Virus record (IMG/VR): IMGVR_UViG_3300025138_012102
Coordinates: 1 to 33,443 of that record
DNA: 33,443 nucleotides
DNA from: a virus
Reading direction: 5' to 3' (one strand)
The first letter of the stretch is position 1. Each line of letters opens with the position of its first letter. The notes beneath the pieces are model-generated. The model was not told where the DNA came from. It ran no database searches and saw only the letters and a list, made by a program, of their open reading frames with translations. The translations under genes and the position numbers were made by a program. Positions 398-6,938 of this stretch are shown piece after piece.

Positions 398-408
398 GGC
401 TTCATGCC
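398..408 (-). promoter_or_regulatory. 5'-leader hairpin of the ligase mRNA
   Basis: On the minus strand GGC-ATGAA-GCC can form a small stem-loop just after the predicted transcription start. Flanking ATAAAT and ATTTAT can extend it with an internal loop. The same element, with GGC or GGT on the 5' side, recurs at 3328-3338, 3077-3086 and 6882-6891. It contains an ATG. Function is unknown; mRNA stability or translational control are possibilities. Confidence 0.45.
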
Positions 409-417
409 TCATTTATG

Positions 418-451
418 CGTAAATATACGAAAGATATCTGGCTAAGCCAAA
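418..451 (-). promoter_or_regulatory. Promoter for the ligase gene (Bacteroidota-type)
   Basis: On the minus strand TTTG (448-451) is followed by exactly 20 bases ending TTTCG, then TATATTTACG (418-427). This fits the Bacteroidota -33 TTTG and -7 TAnnTTTG elements. A short dyad, ATTTGGC-TTA-GCCAGAT (one wobble pair), overlaps the -33 box. The architecture is repeated at eight other intergenic sites. Confidence 0.8.
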
Positions 452-469
452 TGTTTTTGCATATGTCTT

Positions 470-721
470 TTATATACTGTTGAAGAAATGCATCGTCCAA
501 GCAATTAATCCATTCAATTGAAGCGCAACTAAATTCCATTGTCTTCGAGTTATTACTTGAACTAATACACAAATAAAACCAATTACAAATAATATTGGCT
601 CTAAAGTCCATTGACCTGCTATTAAAAAACCCGCTCCCATGTAACCAACTCTTGTTGCTATTCTTTCTAATGGGGTTAAACGTCTATTTCTATTAATTAA
701 ATTAGCTCCTTTTTCCTTCAT
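470..721 (-). CDS. Small two-helix membrane protein
   Basis: 83 residues. A basic N-terminus (MKEKGANLINRNRRLTPLER) is followed by two hydrophobic segments, about residues 28-55 (MGAGFLIAG through FVIGFICVLVQV) and 64-80. An inner-membrane location is likely. It ends a run of short genes starting at the RadA-like ATPase; its start overlaps the 41-residue gene upstream. No family was recognised. A role in envelope or superinfection control would be speculation. Confidence 0.75.
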   Translation of the reverse strand: MKEKGANLINRNRRLTPLERIATRVGYMGAGFLIAGQWTLEPILFVIGFICVLVQVITRRQWNLVALQLNGLIAWTMHFFNSI

Positions 722-827
722 CTAACATATTTTTAACATAATTTCTTTGATTTTGTGATTTCTTGCTTTCAGCTACTTCAGACCAAAACCACTTCTTTAT
801 AAACATATTCCAAATCCAACTTCTCAT
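702..827 (-). CDS. Small Trp-rich basic protein, 41 aa
   Basis: This short frame starts with ATGA overlapping the stop of the upstream gene (824-1138) and ends 20 bases inside the next gene. It begins MRSWIWNMFIKKWFW, which looks like an amphipathic or membrane-associated helix, and continues with a charged, Gln/Asn/Lys-rich tail. The ATGA junction is the packing rule in this genome, which supports it as real. It is nevertheless short and unrecognised. Confidence 0.55.
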   Translation of the reverse strand: MRSWIWNMFIKKWFWSEVAESKKSQNQRNYVKNMLDEGKRS

Positions 828-1138
828 TTATACACTTTCATATTTTTAATCTCATCCATTATACGCTTTACTAAACTACTAGTATGTGTGTTCAAGCGTC
901 TATTTTCATTTATTTGCTTTGTTAATTGACTAATATGATCTACTTTACTAGCAGAATATTGTTTCCAATCTAACCAAAAACCAATAGCAACTAAAACATT
1001 CATACCAAGCGAAGCGAAAAGGATCTTTACATCATCATAAAGTCCCATATTCATCGATAGATGAAAGTGACCAACCATCCAAAATGGTATGGCTAGTTGT
1101 TGACTTATCCAAATTAATACAAATTTAATAAACTTCAT
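824..1138 (-). CDS. Membrane protein with C-terminal coiled-coil-like tail
   Basis: 104 residues. Two hydrophobic stretches (about 5-25 and 38-57) are followed by a polar helical tail of about 45 residues (DHISQLTKQINENRRL...SLVKRIMDEIKNMK) with heptad-like spacing. It overlaps the zinc-ribbon gene upstream by 14 bases. The layout suggests an inner-membrane anchor with a cytoplasmic or periplasmic helix. No family recognised. Confidence 0.75.
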   Translation of the reverse strand: MKFIKFVLIWISQQLAIPFWMVGHFHLSMNMGLYDDVKILFASLGMNVLVAIGFWLDWKQYSASKVDHISQLTKQINENRRLNTHTSSLVKRIMDEIKNMKVYK

Positions 1139-1337
1139 CGTCTTCTTTTAAACCTCTAAAGCGCTTTACAACTCGCTTTGATTTTTTTTCTAATTCATTT
1201 TCTAAAGTTGCTCCACAACTATCGCATTGATATAATCCAGTATCCCAATTCATACTAAATTCAGTTGCTCCACACTTTAAACAAGGATGAAATGGATTCA
1301 TTTCATCATCAAACTCATCATATCTAATTTTACTCAT
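1125..1337 (-). CDS. Zinc-ribbon protein, 70 aa
   Basis: A CxxC pair in HPCLKCGATEF and a second CxxC in YQCDSCGATLE, spaced by about 15 residues, make a classic four-cysteine zinc ribbon. An acidic N-terminus and a Lys/Arg-rich C-terminus (KKSKRVVKRFRGLKED) flank it. I place the start at the ATG at 1337, overlapping the upstream stop by 8 bases; the longer frame to 1343 would need TTG. Nucleic acid or protein binding is likely, with the target unknown. Confidence 0.75.
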   Translation of the reverse strand: MSKIRYDEFDDEMNPFHPCLKCGATEFSMNWDTGLYQCDSCGATLENELEKKSKRVVKRFRGLKEDDEVY

Positions 1338-1548
1338 CTTCAATTACTTCTACATCGGGAATAGTTTCACACATTAAAAAATGGGTTTGTGTTCTTAAAA
1401 CATGATCACATCCAAGGTAATCTCTATATGCTGCTAGTAGCTCCATATTTAATTTATTTTGACCTTTAACTTCAAACATATGAATAGGTGTCTCACGCTT
1501 AACCACATAGGCTTGATCATTTACATATTTTAGGTAATCTGTTATCAT
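1330..1548 (-). CDS. Conserved small phage protein, unknown function
   Basis: 72 residues with no signal peptide or membrane segment. The central part (ETPIHMFEVKGQNKLNMELL, then YRDYLGCDHVLRTQTHFLMC) resembles, from memory, a small uncharacterised protein found in marine T4-like and other phages. The sequence is not low-complexity and looks like a compact folded domain. It overlaps the zinc-ribbon gene by 8 bases, so the two are probably translationally coupled. Confidence 0.75.
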   Translation of the reverse strand: MITDYLKYVNDQAYVVKRETPIHMFEVKGQNKLNMELLAAYRDYLGCDHVLRTQTHFLMCETIPDVEVIEDE

Positions 1549-1587
1549 ATATACGTATTAACTGGATATTAGTTGTAGAAAGAGCTT

Positions 1588-1722
1588 TTAGCTTCTCTTA
1601 CCTCGCTTTGTTTTATATTCATTTATCACTCCTTTATTTTCTTTAGCTTTTTTTTCTGCTATAATTTGTCTATAAATTGGACTTTCCCATTCACAACCCT
1701 TATATTCTCTTACTTTTCTCAT
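1588..1722 (-). CDS. Small basic protein, 44 aa
   Basis: The ATG at 1722 overlaps the upstream stop as ATGA (1719-1722); an in-frame ATG at 1728 is the alternative. The product (MRKVREYKGCEWESPIYRQI...) is rich in Lys/Arg/Glu and ends KTKRGKRS. It fills the otherwise empty stretch between the genes at 1548 and 1719. Coupling and the lack of other content support it. Function unknown. Confidence 0.6.
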   Translation of the reverse strand: MRKVREYKGCEWESPIYRQIIAEKKAKENKGVINEYKTKRGKRS

Positions 1723-2075
1723 TTCCATAATACTTGTATACAAACTAATAATAATGCTAATACTAAACTAACTAATGTTTTTGGTGTTATTCCTTCATCA
1801 AAATGGAACCCAACAAATATAGCATATATAATCATCCCAATTCCAAACCCAATAAATCTAGCAGGCCATAGTAAACCTCCTACACCGGCTACAGTATATT
1901 TTGTTCCCCAAATATAAAAAAATGATAATACCATACCACAAGCTGCTACTATAATTTCATTTTTCCTAAACCAATCTGTTGATTTTAGAAATTGTCCGTT
2001 TAATTGATAAAATGTTAAAATATGAGCTATTAGAAACGCTCCACTCCCAATCAATAAATCCACTACTTTAATCAT
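1719..2075 (-). CDS. Four-helix integral membrane protein
   Basis: 118 residues, mostly hydrophobic, with four predicted transmembrane segments at about 5-22, 42-60, 68-92 and 98-116. Short loops include a charged one around STDWFRKNE. It has no signal peptide cleavage motif. It follows another hydrophobic gene (2080-2250) with a 4-base gap, so two membrane proteins are made in tandem. No family assigned; a holin or envelope modifier cannot be decided from sequence. Confidence 0.75.
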   Translation of the reverse strand: MIKVVDLLIGSGAFLIAHILTFYQLNGQFLKSTDWFRKNEIIVAACGMVLSFFYIWGTKYTVAGVGGLLWPARFIGFGIGMIIYAIFVGFHFDEGITPKTLVSLVLALLLVCIQVLWK

Positions 2076-2079
2076 ACTC

Positions 2080-2250
2080 TTATTTTTTAAATCTTTCTTT
2101 TAAATAACCATGTATAAAACTTATAATAGCTAAAGGCCATAAAAGTAATACAACTAATCTTTCCCAATTATCAAATTTTATTTTTACATGATTTGAAGCT
2201 AAATCCACCAAAAAGGTGAATATAACTCCAAATAATAAATAGTTTATCAT
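2080..2250 (-). CDS. Small membrane protein, 56 aa
   Basis: Reads MINYLLFGVIFTFLVDL..., then a polar middle, then a second hydrophobic segment (LVVLLLWPLAIISFIHGYL) and a basic tail KERFKK. This gives two transmembrane helices with a short linker. The start lies one base after the stop of the RadA-like gene. It ends 4 bases before the next membrane protein gene. Unrecognised, but codon pattern and spacing match its neighbours. Confidence 0.7.
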   Translation of the reverse strand: MINYLLFGVIFTFLVDLASNHVKIKFDNWERLVVLLLWPLAIISFIHGYLKERFKK

Positions 2251-2251
2251 A

Positions 2252-3046
2252 TTATATCATATTTATTGGCTCATCAGATAACCAATTTACTTTATTTTTA
2301 CTGTTTAAGTTAAAAAACAACTTATTACCATTTCCACCTCTACGATTTTTGCTAAAATGAAAAAATCTACTCCCATCACCATCAAATTTTAAATGACCCA
2401 TTGCTGTTGTCATATGCTTTATTTTATTTGATCCAACAAAACCACCGCTTTTAGTAACTTGTTGTATTATTAAAAATGTAGTATTAACATTTCCAAAATT
2501 ATTAGCTTGATTATGTTCATCAAGTAATTGGAGTATTCTATTAGTATTTGATTTAACTGAACCCCCAAAATGATCAACATAACTATCACTTATTTCTGCT
2601 AATGAATCTATTAATACACAATCATATCCTTCTTTAAGTGCTGTTCTTAATACTACATCAGGATTTACTTCAGCATAATCACCCATAAATAATATATCTA
2701 AATCACCAAATTTTGGAAATCTACGAACATATCCTACCATATCGATAGCATTCATTTCCCCACTTATAAACAAACATTTTTTACCCTTCATTTGAAGATC
2801 ACCTAATATATCTAACAATACTGTTGTTTTACCAACACCAGGATCACCAGTAACTACAACATTTGTACCAGGCATAACACCACCTTCAGCACTAAAAAAT
2901 GCATCAACTTTAGTTCCTGTAACCATTGGTTCAAATAATTTTTTATCAAAATTTAAATCATTCATTTTAACGGTTTTCACGTTCATCTTTAATGTTGGTG
3001 TTTCAACTACCTTACTTGGACGACCTCTTTTAACTTCTTTTAACAT
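2252..3046 (-). CDS. RadA/Sms-like RecA-fold ATPase with AT-hook-like N-terminus
   Basis: 264 residues. Walker A GDPGVGKT lies at 67-74, and Walker B-like DCVLIDSLAE has its Asp near 147. Downstream, LIIQQVTKSG and KHMTTAMGHLKFDGD...FHFSKNRRGGN resemble RadA's GHVTKEG, EHMVD and KNR (KNRFG) motifs. It lacks RadA's N-terminal zinc finger and C-terminal Lon-like domain, so it is a core-only version. The N-terminus has KRGRPSK, an AT-hook-like motif. Likely a recombination or replication helicase-type motor. It could fill the role T4 gives to UvsX or gp41, which I did not see in this window. Own promoter at 3096-3129. Confidence 0.8.
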   Translation of the reverse strand: MLKEVKRGRPSKVVETPTLKMNVKTVKMNDLNFDKKLFEPMVTGTKVDAFFSAEGGVMPGTNVVVTGDPGVGKTTVLLDILGDLQMKGKKCLFISGEMNAIDMVGYVRRFPKFGDLDILFMGDYAEVNPDVVLRTALKEGYDCVLIDSLAEISDSYVDHFGGSVKSNTNRILQLLDEHNQANNFGNVNTTFLIIQQVTKSGGFVGSNKIKHMTTAMGHLKFDGDGSRFFHFSKNRRGGNGNKLFFNLNSKNKVNWLSDEPINMI

Positions 3047-3076
3047 AACCTTTATTTATTTAATTTAACAATTTTG

Positions 3077-3086
3077 GGCTCTCACC
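3077..3086 (-). promoter_or_regulatory. 5'-leader hairpin of the RadA-like mRNA
   Basis: Minus-strand GGT-GAGA-GCC gives a 3-bp stem closed by a GNRA-type tetraloop, about 10 bases downstream of the -7 box. It matches leader elements at 398-408, 3328-3338 and 6882-6891. An overlapping ATG-AGG-TGA makes a two-codon upstream reading frame here. Confidence 0.4.
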
Positions 3087-3095
3087 TCATTTATA

Positions 3096-3129
3096 CATAA
3101 ATATACGAACACTTTCTCGCTTCTCCAAA
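3096..3129 (-). promoter_or_regulatory. Promoter for the RadA-like operon
   Basis: Minus-strand TTTG (3126-3129), a 20-base spacer ending GTTCG, and TATATTTATG (3096-3105). It should drive the ATPase and the small membrane and zinc-ribbon genes down to about position 470. Confidence 0.8.
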
Positions 3130-3146
3130 CATTTTCGCATATGTTT

Positions 3147-3302
3147 TTAAATGCTTTCATTAGCCCATTCATTATCTGATTGAGAACCATCATCTAAATT
3201 CTGTAGTTCTATCATTTCTTTATACTCATCGGTTGTTATGTGACCACCATTTAAACCTACCCATAGGTCTATTACTAAATTTACTTTTTCTTGATTATTC
3301 AT
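3147..3302 (-). CDS. Small acidic protein, 51 aa
   Basis: The ATG at 3302 has the AATAAAGGTT context seen before other promoter-proximal genes. The longer frame from 3335 would start inside the leader hairpin, so I reject it as the main start. The product is acidic (...DEYKEMIELQNLDDGSQSDNEW) with a hydrophobic N-terminal helix (VNLVIDLWVGL). It is monocistronic between two copies of the common promoter, which suggests individual regulation. Function unknown. Confidence 0.65.
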   Translation of the reverse strand: MNNQEKVNLVIDLWVGLNGGHITTDEYKEMIELQNLDDGSQSDNEWANESI

Positions 3303-3327
3303 AACCTTTATTTTTAATTTGTTTTCC

Positions 3328-3338
3328 GGCTTCATGCC
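3328..3338 (-). promoter_or_regulatory. 5'-leader hairpin upstream of the 51-aa gene
   Basis: Minus-strand GGC-ATGAA-GCC, identical in its 11 bases to the ligase leader element (398-408), at the same distance after a TATATTTACG box. Its ATG is in frame with the downstream gene. Confidence 0.45.
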
Positions 3339-3347
3339 TTATTTACA

Positions 3348-3381
3348 CGTAAATATACGAAGGGAATCTGGCATAGCCAAA
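3348..3381 (-). promoter_or_regulatory. Promoter for the 51-aa gene
   Basis: Minus-strand TTTG (3378-3381), a 20-base spacer ending CTTCG, then TATATTTACG (3348-3357). The -33 box is embedded in an 11-bp hairpin (3362-3386). Confidence 0.8.
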
Positions 3382-3386
3382 TTCCC
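3362..3386 (-). terminator. Strong hairpin overlapping a promoter; possible terminator or operator
   Basis: On the minus strand GGGAATTTGGC and GCCAGATTCCC flank a 3-base TAT loop. The two arms pair over 11 positions with a single G-U wobble. It lies after the membrane protein gene at 3412-3639 and is followed by CTTCGTATATTT, not a clean T-tract. It may end the OMP transcript, act as an operator over the -33 box, or both. Confidence 0.45.
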
Positions 3387-3411
3387 CCGCATAAGTTTTC
3401 TAGAAATTTTA

Positions 3412-3639
3412 TTATTTTTTATCCATAAAGAATTTTGCTAAAATCACTAGGGCTACTAATCCAACAAATCCCCCCTCACCAAAGCTTGAGATTAAACTTG
3501 TTAAATTCGCTACTACATCCATCCCGAATATAGTTTGACCAGTTAAAACATTCCATAGGATCGCTACTGGAACTACTGCCATCATAATTGACAATAACCC
3601 ACTAAAAAATCCAGTTACATACTTAATTACATTTTCCAT
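3412..3639 (-). CDS. Two-helix membrane protein, holin-like in size
   Basis: 75 residues. Two hydrophobic segments (about 10-34, FFSGLLSIMMAVVPVAILWNV, and 57-71, GFVGLVALVILAKFF) are joined by a Gly/Ser-rich loop, and it ends KFFMDKK. Size and topology resemble class II holins, but no motif proves that. It lies 26 bases after the outer-membrane-type gene and shares its transcript. The lytic transglycosylase at 8.2-8.8 kb is not adjacent. Confidence 0.7.
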   Translation of the reverse strand: MENVIKYVTGFFSGLLSIMMAVVPVAILWNVLTGQTIFGMDVVANLTSLISSFGEGGFVGLVALVILAKFFMDKK

Positions 3640-3665
3640 TTTAATTTAATTTAAGTTAAACAATA

Positions 3666-4088
3666 TTAAAACTTCAACCCAAACCCTAACTGTAAGTTAG
3701 TAGTTTTAGCTGCTGTATCGTATACAACTTTAGGATCTAGGAATACTCCTTTGTGGATAGAAAACATTCTACCAACTCCTAATTTCATACCATCTGTGTC
3801 TAGTCCATCTGTAGCCACATACGCGAAATATCCTTTATAGAAATATCTAGCATGTAGATCAAGAGTTAAGTCCTCTGTTGAATCTGCTTGAGAAACATTT
3901 GCCCCTATCATAAGGTCATCTGTTATAGCATATCCAACTGTTGGGCTTAAAGACCAATCAGTCCATGATACATTTGCAATGTCACCAGTACCAACGTACC
4001 AGTCACCTTTTGTGTTTTGCACTTCTTGTGCGTTAGCTCCAACTGTTAAAAACAAGCCGAGAGCCAATGTTAAAATCATTTTTTTCAT
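3666..4088 (-). CDS. Secreted outer-membrane beta-barrel-like protein (OmpW/OMP type)
   Basis: 140 residues. A textbook signal peptide (MKKMILTLALGLFLTVGANA, cleavage before QEVQ) precedes a mature part of alternating polar and hydrophobic residues. It contains LSPTVGYAITDDLMIGANVS, LDLHARYFYKGYFAYVATDG and a terminal aromatic LQLGFGLKF, the usual signal of an outer-membrane barrel. About six to eight strands would fit. A phage-made outer membrane protein could block receptors or alter permeability; this is inference. The common promoter motif is absent upstream, so it may belong to a different expression class. Confidence 0.75.
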   Translation of the reverse strand: MKKMILTLALGLFLTVGANAQEVQNTKGDWYVGTGDIANVSWTDWSLSPTVGYAITDDLMIGANVSQADSTEDLTLDLHARYFYKGYFAYVATDGLDTDGMKLGVGRMFSIHKGVFLDPKVVYDTAAKTTNLQLGFGLKF

Positions 4089-4123
4089 TTTTTTGATTTT
4101 GGTTAATAAATAGTTTTATTTGA

Positions 4124-4142
4124 AAACGTAGTGGCCAACTAC
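4124..4142 (-). terminator. Weak hairpin at the end of the 4.1-5.8 kb operon
   Basis: Minus-strand GTAGT-TGGCC-ACTAC, followed by GTTTTC, overlaps the stop codon at 4139. The 5-bp stem and short T-run make it a weak terminator candidate. Nothing else was recognised in the 50 bases before the OMP gene. Confidence 0.3.
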
Positions 4143-4264
4143 TTTGGATAACTTATCATTGCCCGTTGTACATCTTCAAATGTCGAACGTGAATGATAAT
4201 AAATTTGACCTGGGGATCCTACCTGTACTATATGTAATTTAGGAATCCATTTTATCAGCTTCAT
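4139..4264 (-). CDS. Possible small coupled protein, 41 aa
   Basis: The frame starting at ATG 4264 overlaps the last 26 bases of the upstream gene and continues 100 bases beyond it. It reads MKLIKWIPKLHIVQVGSPGQ, then IYYHSRSTFEDVQRAMISYPK. The part outside the overlap has a natural-looking composition, with an amphipathic TFEDVQRAMI helix. Without it, 4139-4238 would be empty in a genome with almost no gaps. The longer in-frame version to 4402 is mostly a shadow. Function unknown. Confidence 0.5.
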   Translation of the reverse strand: MKLIKWIPKLHIVQVGSPGQIYYHSRSTFEDVQRAMISYPK

Positions 4265-4922
4265 AGTTTTGGAAATCTTCAACAAAGTCGTCCATTTCAT
4301 AATCACTATAATCACTGTCTCTGCCTGCTGCAAAGTCTCTTTGAAGTGATTCAATGTAAGCATCCAATGCTGGATCTTCTTGATCACCTCTTTGTAAATC
4401 ATCTTGAATGAATTTTCTAATTACATTAAAATCCATTTCTTTGGCTTCGTTTAAAAACTTAGCCCATTTTGCTTCATAACCTTGTTCCATAATATTTTCT
4501 TCTTTAATTTCATCTACTCTAAATATTCCACCTGCATCTGCTGGCATTTCTTTTTCGAATTGATCTGCTATAGAACGAATACCATTATTTTTAAATGACA
4601 TCCATTCGTTATCAAACCATACATATCCATAATCACCACCAAACTCATCTACCTTTTCCCCAATTTGTAATCCTGCTTCTACTATATCATCATCAAGAAT
4701 CATTTTATCAGCAGATTCTTTATATTTTGATTCAATTTCTCCACTATCTGGGTCTATTGATGAAATATATCCTGTATTAGCTACAACTCTTGCTTTTTCA
4801 TCAGTGTTGAAGAATTTCTCTAATGTTTTACCCAAACCATCTGGGTAACCATCATAGTGATTATAAGTAGACACAAACTTTCTGTCTTTATCTAAGTGTC
4901 CTATAAGTGCTCTTGTTGCCAT
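4239..4922 (-). CDS. Conserved phage protein of the MATRxxIG...YNHYDGYPxGLG family
   Basis: 227 residues. The N-terminus (MATRALIGHLDKDRKFVSTY, then NHYDGYPDGLGKTL) matches an uncharacterised but widespread phage family that usually reads MATRxxIG...Y.HWDGYPxGxG. The second half is strongly acidic (DSDYSDYEMDDFVEDFQNYE). No catalytic motif is evident. It follows the 136-aa gene by 24 bases and belongs to the unit driven from 5803-5836. Confidence 0.8.
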   Translation of the reverse strand: MATRALIGHLDKDRKFVSTYNHYDGYPDGLGKTLEKFFNTDEKARVVANTGYISSIDPDSGEIESKYKESADKMILDDDIVEAGLQIGEKVDEFGGDYGYVWFDNEWMSFKNNGIRSIADQFEKEMPADAGGIFRVDEIKEENIMEQGYEAKWAKFLNEAKEMDFNVIRKFIQDDLQRGDQEDPALDAYIESLQRDFAAGRDSDYSDYEMDDFVEDFQNYEADKMDS

Positions 4923-4946
4923 TATCTTGTTCTTTTATTATACATA

Positions 4947-5357
4947 TTAGAGATTATATTCCTGTTTATATTTTTTAATAAAACCTTCACCAACTGACAA
5001 ATGTAATATTACTGCTTTTTCTGGTACTCCTGGAAGTTTGTCGGCAGTTGCAATATAATCTATATTTGTATTCCTCCAAACTTTTATTTTAGTTTTTGCA
5101 TTACTTCTATTGGAGGTTTTAAAAACTAACACAACAGGCATTTTACCATATGTTTTATTTTTTTCAATTTTTACTTTAGGGTATTTAACTCCCTTAGGAA
5201 ATGTAGTTACTACTTTATAAGGACCGTTAGGAGCTTTATCTACATCATAATACCATGTAGTTGTTTCTCCTAATTCTGGTTTTGAAGGAACCTCATAAAA
5301 TACTTGCTCGTATACCTTTTTTACTTCATCCTTTTCAACAGGTCTACCTCTATTCAT
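4947..5357 (-). CDS. Hypothetical protein with AT-hook-like RGRP start
   Basis: 136 residues. It starts MNRGRPVEKDEVKK, an AT-hook-like RGRP in a charged context. The rest is a Lys-rich, beta-looking domain (TTWYYDVDKAPNGPYKVVTTF ... MPVVLVFKTSNRSNAKTKIKV). It overlaps the SWIM-finger gene by 8 bases and is probably translated with it. A DNA-associated role is a guess from RGRP alone; a similar motif begins the RadA-like protein. Confidence 0.7.
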   Translation of the reverse strand: MNRGRPVEKDEVKKVYEQVFYEVPSKPELGETTTWYYDVDKAPNGPYKVVTTFPKGVKYPKVKIEKNKTYGKMPVVLVFKTSNRSNAKTKIKVWRNTNIDYIATADKLPGVPEKAVILHLSVGEGFIKKYKQEYNL

Positions 5358-5781
5358 TTCTTAATTCTTTTACGTGTTTACAATTACCACTTGATCTCCA
5401 ATAACCAGGACATGAACAATGATATTTACCTGAATCTGGGTAAAATTTTGTTGTATATTCACCTAACCCACTTCCACTAATATGTGTTCTAGTAATAGTT
5501 TTTGATTTTTTAACTTTTTTAATCTTAGGTTTAATCCAATTAATATCCTCTAATCTTGTTTCAGGTAAAACTTCATCCCATGTAGGAACAATATACTTTT
5601 TACCACCTATATTAACCAATGAAGGAGGCATATGATGTTCATAATCATATTTAAATAACCTAAATCCAATAAAAGGACCAAATCCTTTAGGATTAATACT
5701 TAAATTGCTTTTTTCTTGCCAAAATCTCCTAGTTCGAAGATTTCCGTATTTATTTAGATTTGAAAATTCTACTATGGGCAT
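5350..5781 (-). CDS. SWIM zinc-finger protein
   Basis: 143 residues. The C-terminus carries C122-x-C124, then C134-x-H136 (HCSCPGYWRSSGNCKHVKEL), the CxC-x(n)-CxH pattern of SWIM domains, which bind nucleic acid or protein. The N-terminal 90 residues are basic and unrecognised, with IKKVKKSKTITRTH before the finger. The ATG at 5781 has the AATAAAGGTT context and lies 22 bases below its own promoter. No recombination mediator or transposase domain accompanies the finger, unlike many cellular SWIM proteins. Confidence 0.75.
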   Translation of the reverse strand: MPIVEFSNLNKYGNLRTRRFWQEKSNLSINPKGFGPFIGFRLFKYDYEHHMPPSLVNIGGKKYIVPTWDEVLPETRLEDINWIKPKIKKVKKSKTITRTHISGSGLGEYTTKFYPDSGKYHCSCPGYWRSSGNCKHVKELRNE

Positions 5782-5802
5782 AACCTTTATTTTTTATTTA
5801 TA

Positions 5803-5836
5803 CGTAAATATACGAAAGATATTTCAGGTAACCAAA
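5803..5836 (-). promoter_or_regulatory. Promoter for the SWIM-finger operon
   Basis: Minus-strand TTTG (5833-5836), a 20-base spacer ending TTTCG, then TATATTTACG (5803-5812). The leader is short and A-rich and lacks the conserved hairpin of its sister promoters. Confidence 0.8.
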
Positions 5837-5837
5837 T

Positions 5838-6389
5838 TTATACCATGGGTTTTCCGAACATCTTTTTTACAAATACTTTACCACCTAACTTTCTTTCATA
5901 TGACCCATCATCATATAATTTTATATCTTTTCCTTTAAGTGCTTTTTTTATTGTTTCTCCATCTTTAACTTGAGAAACATTAGCATTTTGTAATATATCA
6001 GACATTTTACCTGATGCTTCAATATAATTTGACGATTTACCTAATTGGTTAATAGTATGACCTATTGAACCTCTTTTTGCTGGTTTTGTACCATCATGTC
6101 CTAAGCCAACATGCTTTGTTCCTCCTGCTCTATTTTTACTTACAGTAACAGCATCTATTTCTGGGTCATCATCTAAGTCTATAACTTGATAATCTGATCC
6201 TGCTATATCACTAATTGATTTATAATTTGGATGACCACCTATAGGACCATAAGCATTCTGAATTAAATTAAGAATATCATCTTCTAAATCTTTAAGTTCA
6301 TTAGATGATAATGGTTTCCAAGTATTTTTTGGGATTTCTACTTCATTTAAATACTTATTTCTGAAATATTTTGTTAAATTGAAACTCAT
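5838..6389 (-). CDS. Conserved T4-like phage protein, GNAT-like pattern
   Basis: 183 residues. The middle (YGPIGGHPNYKSISDI, DYQVIDLDDDPEIDAVTVSK, GTKHVGLGHDGTKPAKRGSI, then NYIEASGKMSDIL) resembles a protein widespread in marine T4-like phages. I associate it loosely with an acetyltransferase-like fold. No catalytic residue can be named with confidence. It starts with ATGA overlapping the upstream hydrolase stop, so the two form a two-gene unit. Confidence 0.7.
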   Translation of the reverse strand: MSFNLTKYFRNKYLNEVEIPKNTWKPLSSNELKDLEDDILNLIQNAYGPIGGHPNYKSISDIAGSDYQVIDLDDDPEIDAVTVSKNRAGGTKHVGLGHDGTKPAKRGSIGHTINQLGKSSNYIEASGKMSDILQNANVSQVKDGETIKKALKGKDIKLYDDGSYERKLGGKVFVKKMFGKPMV

Positions 6390-6871
6390 ATTTTATTATA
6401 CATATCAGTAAATACTTGAAGTGGGATTCTGTGACCCATTTCTTTAATATGTTCAATTTTATAATTAACTGTTTTATCTTGGATATGATCCTTTAAGTAA
6501 TCTAATGTTCTATTTCCATCAACAATATTATCTTGTTTACCAATAACAATTGTTAATTCACTAGGTATGTGAGATTTAGCAAATTTAGGAAAATTGGGCT
6601 CAATTGTTCTACTATGTAATGCTGGATTAAATGCTAATACTGGTAATTGATAAAGACCTCCTAATACATAAGCTGCATACCCACCCATACTAGAACCAAT
6701 AATTAAATCAGGTTGGAATTCTTCTATTGTTTTAAGTAAAAATGTAAAAATATCATTTCTAGTATAATCTAAAGAAGGTGCATGAACATAACATTTAGTT
6801 GCTAAATAATCAACTTTTTCACCACCTTGTGGACTTTCTAAACCATGTAAATATAATACTTTTTGTTTCAT
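6386..6871 (-). CDS. Alpha/beta-hydrolase, YqiA-like esterase
   Basis: 161 residues from the ATG at 6871 (MKQKVLYLHGLESPQGGEK). LYLHGL at the start provides an oxyanion region, IIGSSMGGYAA has the GxSxGG nucleophile elbow, and a His near the end (EMGHRIP) completes the likely triad, with an Asp in GKQDNIVDG. This is the UPF0227/YqiA-type small esterase layout. The substrate is unknown; de-esterifying host surface polymers is possible. The longer frame to 6895 would begin inside the leader hairpin. Confidence 0.8.
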   Translation of the reverse strand: MKQKVLYLHGLESPQGGEKVDYLATKCYVHAPSLDYTRNDIFTFLLKTIEEFQPDLIIGSSMGGYAAYVLGGLYQLPVLAFNPALHSRTIEPNFPKFAKSHIPSELTIVIGKQDNIVDGNRTLDYLKDHIQDKTVNYKIEHIKEMGHRIPLQVFTDMYNKI

Positions 6872-6881
6872 AACTGTGTTG

Positions 6882-6891
6882 GGCTTGCACC
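6882..6891 (-). promoter_or_regulatory. 5'-leader hairpin of the hydrolase mRNA
   Basis: Minus-strand GGT-GCAA-GCC gives a 3-bp stem with a GNRA tetraloop, positioned as in the other three leaders. An ATG at 6895, just 5' of it, is in frame with the hydrolase. Confidence 0.4.
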
Positions 6892-6900
6892 TCATTTATA

Positions 6901-6934
6901 CGTAAATATACGAACCCTTCTTCAGGTATCCAAA
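6901..6934 (-). promoter_or_regulatory. Promoter for the hydrolase operon
   Basis: Minus-strand TTTG (6931-6934), a 20-base spacer ending GTTCG, then TATATTTACG (6901-6910). It begins 5 bases after the lipoprotein gene ends. Confidence 0.8.
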
Positions 6935-6938
6935 TATT

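Follow-up and report, generated by a model that had tools for sequence, protein, structure and literature searches.

A promoter-attached leader hairpin points to an RNA signal in early transcripts of uncultured marine Bacteroidota phages

In the virus record IMGVR_UViG_3300025138_012102, analyzed here over its whole length of 33,443 bases (the window), four genes on the minus strand are preceded by a promoter and, directly downstream of it, by a very short stem-loop. We have asked whether these leader hairpins are chance pairings or copies of one structured RNA element and, in the latter case, what such an element could do at the start of phage transcripts. The comparison with related phages supported a shared element, the main evidence being the covariation of the two stem arms.

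The leader hairpins and their covariation in related phages

Direct reading of the sequence confirmed the four stems proposed in the initial annotation, all on the minus strand: GGC-AUGAA-GCC in the DNA ligase leader (398-408, predicted fold of -4.0 kcal/mol), GGU-GAGA-GCC in the leader of a RadA/RecA-like ATPase gene (3077-3086), GGC-AUGAA-GCC before a gene for a 51-amino-acid (aa) protein (3328-3338) and GGU-GCAA-GCC in a hydrolase leader (6882-6891), the last three likewise read and folded. All four loops had been described as GNRA-type; this held for GAGA and GCAA, which are true GNRA tetraloops, and failed for the two AUGAA loops, which have five bases. In pattern scans, each hairpin was preceded by TATATTTA(C/T)GNNTAAAT(G/A)AGG, with a gap of 2-3 bases between the TAAAT box and the hairpin, the box itself lying downstream of TTTGG-N15-TTCGTATATTTA. 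The window stems are 3 bp long, and the folding energies of the four leaders (-3 to -4 kcal/mol) did not stand out from those of shuffled sequences (z from -1.3 to +0.2), so that chance could not be excluded from the window alone. Single-leader shuffle tests are too weak for 3-bp stems, and minimum free energy z-scores were not taken as proof.

Relatives were gathered by a protein search with the ATPase and by DNA-pattern searches, which yielded many phage contigs, and a promoter scan of these contigs gave several hundred leaders. The first promoter filter missed some promoters with TGTGG replacing TTTGG, which were found later via a covariance model. A hairpin was present at the matching position in about 51 distinct leaders from 29 contigs (contigs tallied by hand; one unrelated row, L205, omitted from the count). 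GGC/GCC was the commonest stem, accompanied by GGC/GCU, GGU/GCC, GGU/ACC, GGGU/GCCC, GGGU/ACCC, GGGC/GCCC, AGGC/GCCU and AGGU/GCCU, and further by GUGC/GCAC, GUGA/UCAC, AUGC/GCAU, GACG/CGUC, GGCG/CGUC and GCG/CGC; the GUGC/GCAC helix was found in three gene families. Pairing was also kept in orthologous leaders of differing sequence: those of the ATPase carried GGU/GCC, GGGU/GCCC, GCG/CGC, AUGC/GCAU, GGC/GCC or GGU/ACC, with other phages having no hairpin there.

The covariation was quantified by an arm-swap test on 75 leaders picked solely by the G+C content of the hairpin slot, in which the 5' half of one leader was joined to the 3' half of another. Swapping lowered the mean pairing from 7.6 to 5.7 (z = 5.7), and none of 1000 swaps reached the observed value. 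When 24 arbitrary pairing rules were compared as a control, the Watson-Crick rule performed best (z = 5.4), two others reaching 3.9 and 3.7. The statistical strength comes from the comparison between loop classes. A folding-energy swap gave z = -6.5 on hairpin-selected leaders, a value biased upwards by that selection. Judged by sequence comparison, the hairpin is thus supported as a conserved, covarying structured RNA element, and the earlier proposal of a shared element gained covariation in related phages across about ten or more helix types.

Loops and position relative to the promoter

Among the approximately 51 leaders, 24 of 25 tetraloops were GNRA, on unrelated stems. The remaining loops were purine-rich, mostly A-ending and five (rarely seven) bases long; the pentaloops included AUGAA, GCGAA, GCAAA, AAGAA, GCAGA, GUUAA and AAAAA, among others, and many fit GNRNA by sequence. 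No UNCG or other stable loop type was found in these leaders. The loop-closing pair was U-G in 14 of 21 tetraloop leaders, and such frequent G-U pairs favor RNA over a DNA palindrome as the form in which the element is read.

The start of the stem lay 11.6 ± 0.8 nucleotides (nt) from the -7 box, and the next AUG followed the stem at 22.5 ± 7.6 nt (range 0-35 nt). The position of the stem is therefore tied to the promoter and not to the start codon. Transcription in Flavobacterium johnsoniae starts 4-5 nt past the -7 element (PMC6847099); with starts expected at that distance, an unpaired 5' tail of about 6-9 nt is predicted ahead of the hairpin. Taken together, the leader sequences show an element with a stem of 3-4 bp that tolerates any base change preserving the pairing, a GNRA or purine-rich loop and a fixed distance to the promoter.

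Candidate functions of the hairpin

The reading that we prefer, if only tentatively, is that of a small cis-acting 5'-leader RNA hairpin whose folded loop is recognized by an RNA-binding factor. The transcript would start in or just before the UAAAU box, which would leave about 6-9 nt between its 5' end and the hairpin. A putative factor of phage or host origin would then recognize the folded loop on the nascent or finished early transcript, and its binding would alter how that transcript is elongated, degraded or used. Loop recognition is favored by the small range of loop types on otherwise unrelated stems and by the constant position of the hairpin relative to the transcript start. Tetra- and pentaloops of the GNRA-like kind, boxB among them, are known to serve as protein-binding shapes in phage leaders (PMC12550061). 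A more specific proposal, which we consider unlikely, is a phage-wide RNA recruitment system of Bacteroidota T4-like phages, in which the GNRA-capped hairpin opening early transcripts would bind a phage or host factor modifying the transcribing polymerase or the mRNA; such a system would be analogous but unrelated to N/boxB and LoaP/dfn.

The lambdoid boxB (nut)/N peptide system resembles the present element in having a small hairpin in early leaders with tetra- and pentaloops of the GNRA fold (PMC12550061), a likeness that rests here on loop sequence. It differs in that the stems described here are only 3-4 bp long and variable, and in that many short early units carry the hairpin. Neither a boxA-like box nor an N-like protein was identified, short arginine-rich peptides not being reliably recognizable. 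LoaP/dfn, a NusG-type antitermination system, likewise uses a small 5'-leader hairpin common to several operons of one genome (PMC12691694). However, the dfn hairpin is UNCG-type, within a 417-nt leader with a terminator (PMC12691694), whereas the loops here are GNRA or purine-rich, the leaders have about 30-60 nt and no NusG paralog was found in 18 phage records, mostly fragments. No Rfam family matched in the window, very short elements being poorly served by such models, and a literature search found no described element of this kind.

Several observations weigh against the preferred reading. The pentaloops are varied, which is wide for a single partner, the mean hairpin energy of -3.0 kcal/mol is marginal, and many orthologous leaders have no hairpin. 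Shared ancestry inflates the swap z, since two other pairing rules also scored high, and in the tetraloop class alone the covariation did not go beyond shuffles (66 of 500). The transcript starts are predictions from promoter geometry. As for candidate partners, the NusG-type family PF02357 and the RegA-type family were both absent from 18 phage records, mostly fragments.

RegA, NusG and the ribosomal protein bS21 were rejected as partners: none was found in the window, and few or none of the searched records had them. bS21 genes have been reported in other Bacteroidota phages. Here they occurred in only 3 of 27 records, and neither in the window nor in a 164-kb relative; the three carriers are related phage records (L297, L298 and L299, from G026, G011 and G010, respectively).

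The chief rival is passive stabilization, to which we give a lower but still appreciable probability. The hairpin would hinder 5' attack of the RNase E/RppH type and yield longer-lived early mRNAs in the absence of any specific binder, GNRA being favored for loop stability alone. The location near the 5' end, tied to the promoter rather than to the start codon, the free stem sequence and the unrelated genes served are all compatible with this explanation, and 5' secondary structures are known to stabilize bacterial mRNAs (PMC3997798). Yet both RppH and RNase E attack single-stranded 5' ends, with 2-3 unpaired bases sufficing for Bacillus subtilis RppH (PMC3997798), and because the predicted 5' tail is unpaired, passive stabilization is weakened. 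In addition, the stems are weak and UNCG or other stable loops are missing. With the 5'-terminal stem-loop stabilizers of the ompA/papA type the element has in common a structure rather than a sequence near the mRNA 5' end, while the predicted unpaired tail and the marginal stability would set it apart from them. An effect on translation, through a hairpin that holds the G/C-rich beginning of the leader apart from the initiation region or provides a standby site, appears improbable. In flavobacteria, initiation responds sensitively to structure close to the start codon (PMC6847099), and a AAAGGTTATG box is usually also present in hairpin leaders; however, this box is equally found in leaders without the hairpin, the spacing between hairpin and start codon is only loosely kept (0-35 nt), and bS21, a possible ribosome-altering partner, is rare in the records. 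This explanation presumes host ribosomes that ignore Shine-Dalgarno sequences, as those of Bacteroidota do.

Two other explanations have a very low probability in our view. Common descent of a promoter cassette with a functionless hairpin could account for the alike leaders within one phage and for the z of 3.7-3.9 reached by arbitrary rules; it is very doubtful given the independent helices that differ in both arms at one and the same position, the first rank of Watson-Crick among 24 rules and the pairing kept in diverged orthologous leaders. The least probable explanation is a DNA-level operator or extended promoter, that is, an inverted repeat read by a DNA-binding regulator. The hairpin always accompanies a promoter, and other inverted repeats surround the -7 and -33 elements of these promoters, but the frequent U-G pairs break the palindrome, the loop length varies between four, five and seven, and the tetraloops are GNRA. 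Two further readings of the leader start were rejected: an upstream open reading frame (ORF) from AUGAGG, since the AUG is lost in the many leaders with AUAAGG, and GAGGUG as a general Shine-Dalgarno sequence, since many leaders read AGGC.

Returning to the element as a recognized RNA structure, the data point to many early transcripts of an uncultured marine Bacteroidota phage group beginning with such a hairpin, an RNA signal not described so far. Early-gene control in marine Bacteroidota phages is little known, and a compact, portable, promoter-attached RNA signal offers a concrete element for reporter testing. The hairpin also flags early transcription units in the genomes of uncultured phages and, should it have a binder, the two would form a new phage RNA-protein pair.

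Distribution, genes served and promoters

A covariance model of 22 positions was built for the tetraloop class. Both window tetraloop leaders were in its training set, so that their matches (E = 3.2e-11 for the ATPase and 9.4e-11 for the hydrolase) arise by construction; the model also picked up promoters absent from training, and 11 of 24 phage records matched at E ≤ 0.01. In whole phage records, the strong matches lay on the gene strand directly downstream of promoters, all six in the 164-kb record falling within 53-68 kb, while weak matches outside promoters, such as that in L140, look like chance.

Of the hydrolase leaders, 6 of 9 had the hairpin, as did about 8 of 15 ATPase leaders, and other phages have the identical promoter type without it. 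As its presence varies between orthologs, it behaves as a portable leader module and not as the mark of a fixed regulon. The suggestion that it defines a sub-regulon was accordingly not supported: orthologous leaders have gained or lost the hairpin, and the genes behind it belong to many unrelated types, which in the relatives include a DUF932 protein and numerous small proteins of unknown function. The gene identities assigned at the outset to the ligase, the ATPase and the hydrolase were right. In the window, all on the minus strand, the hairpins precede the 5' portion of a gene for an ATP-dependent DNA ligase, truncated at the contig end (2-367; translation, with a near-identical homolog in L006 matching PF01068 at 7.8e-18), the 264-aa RadA/RecA-like ATPase (2252-3046; PHROG 26214 at 1.5e-17, with weak RecA/KaiC/DnaB matches), the 51-aa protein (3147-3302; an ORF with no Pfam or PHROG match) and a 161-aa UPF0227 (YqiA-like) alpha/beta hydrolase (6386-6871; PF05728 at 2.2e-11).

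Matches to a family B DNA polymerase, a sliding clamp and a clamp loader, together with a GroEL-like ORF tentatively recognized from its translation, point to an uncultured T4-like phage. The nearest polymerase of cultured phages had <60% identity, the ATPase matches in the phage collection were also all <60%, with no close cultured relative, and the hairpin-promoter region gave no meaningful DNA match in that collection.

A host in Bacteroidota is suggested because the window promoters have the Bacteroidota form. The published -33/-7 consensus is TTTG/TANNTTTG (PMC6847099). The promoters read TTTGG-N15-TTCG-TATATTTA, in line with Bacteroidota sigma-A promoters in the -33 TTTG, the -7 TANNTTTG and the spacing, the last base being A and not G, and the class looks readable by the host sigma factor. 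Pattern scans located, on the minus strand, the ligase promoter (411-452; TTTGG-N15-TTCGTATATTTA, followed by CGCATAAAT around the predicted start) and those of the ATPase (3089-3130), the 51-aa protein (3341-3382) and the hydrolase (6894-6935). A fifth, equally strong promoter (5796-5837, minus strand) has the leader TAAATAAAAAATAAAGGTTATG and no hairpin, which bears out the earlier remark that only some promoters carry it (four of five in the window).

Several minor features accompany these promoters. All promoters of the class contain an inverted repeat, ATTTAC-N2/3-GTAAAT, made up of the -7 element and the predicted start (e.g., window 411-427), which is conserved also in leaders without the hairpin. 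In a subset, a longer inverted repeat encloses the -33 element, as in L008, L012, L013, L019, L157 and others and in the window at 3360-3388 (minus strand), where a 13-bp repeat contains the -33 region of the 51-aa gene promoter. Examples are GGGGATTTGGC-TTA-GCCAGATCCCC and AGATATTTGG-AGAAG-CCAAATATCT; the arms covary (swap z = 4.0), and the repeat may be either an operator or a terminator that ends the preceding unit and overlaps with the promoter of the next. Just upstream of TTTGG there is often a TATGC(G/A)AAAA-like stretch, possibly an activator site, as in relatives and, on the minus strand of the window, at the 411, 3089 and 3341 promoters.

The leaders end in a strongly conserved box, TAAAGGTTATG, seen on the minus strand of the window within 360-470, 3040-3130, 3295-3390 and 5780-5840 and at many related loci. 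Its AAAGG stands just two bases ahead of the AUG, which leaves too little room for a normal Shine-Dalgarno helix; in L010, L011 and L059, some leaders have the box several bases ahead of the AUG.

A search of bacterial genome contigs with the promoter pattern matched 25 stretches, and the hairpin occurred in a few contigs of metagenome-assembled genomes: L280, L292 (labeled Candidatus Pelagibacter), L296 (labeled Winogradskyella) and L283 (the same contig as L019). All of these may be phage sequence, and the module-bearing contigs L280, L292 and L296 probably are.

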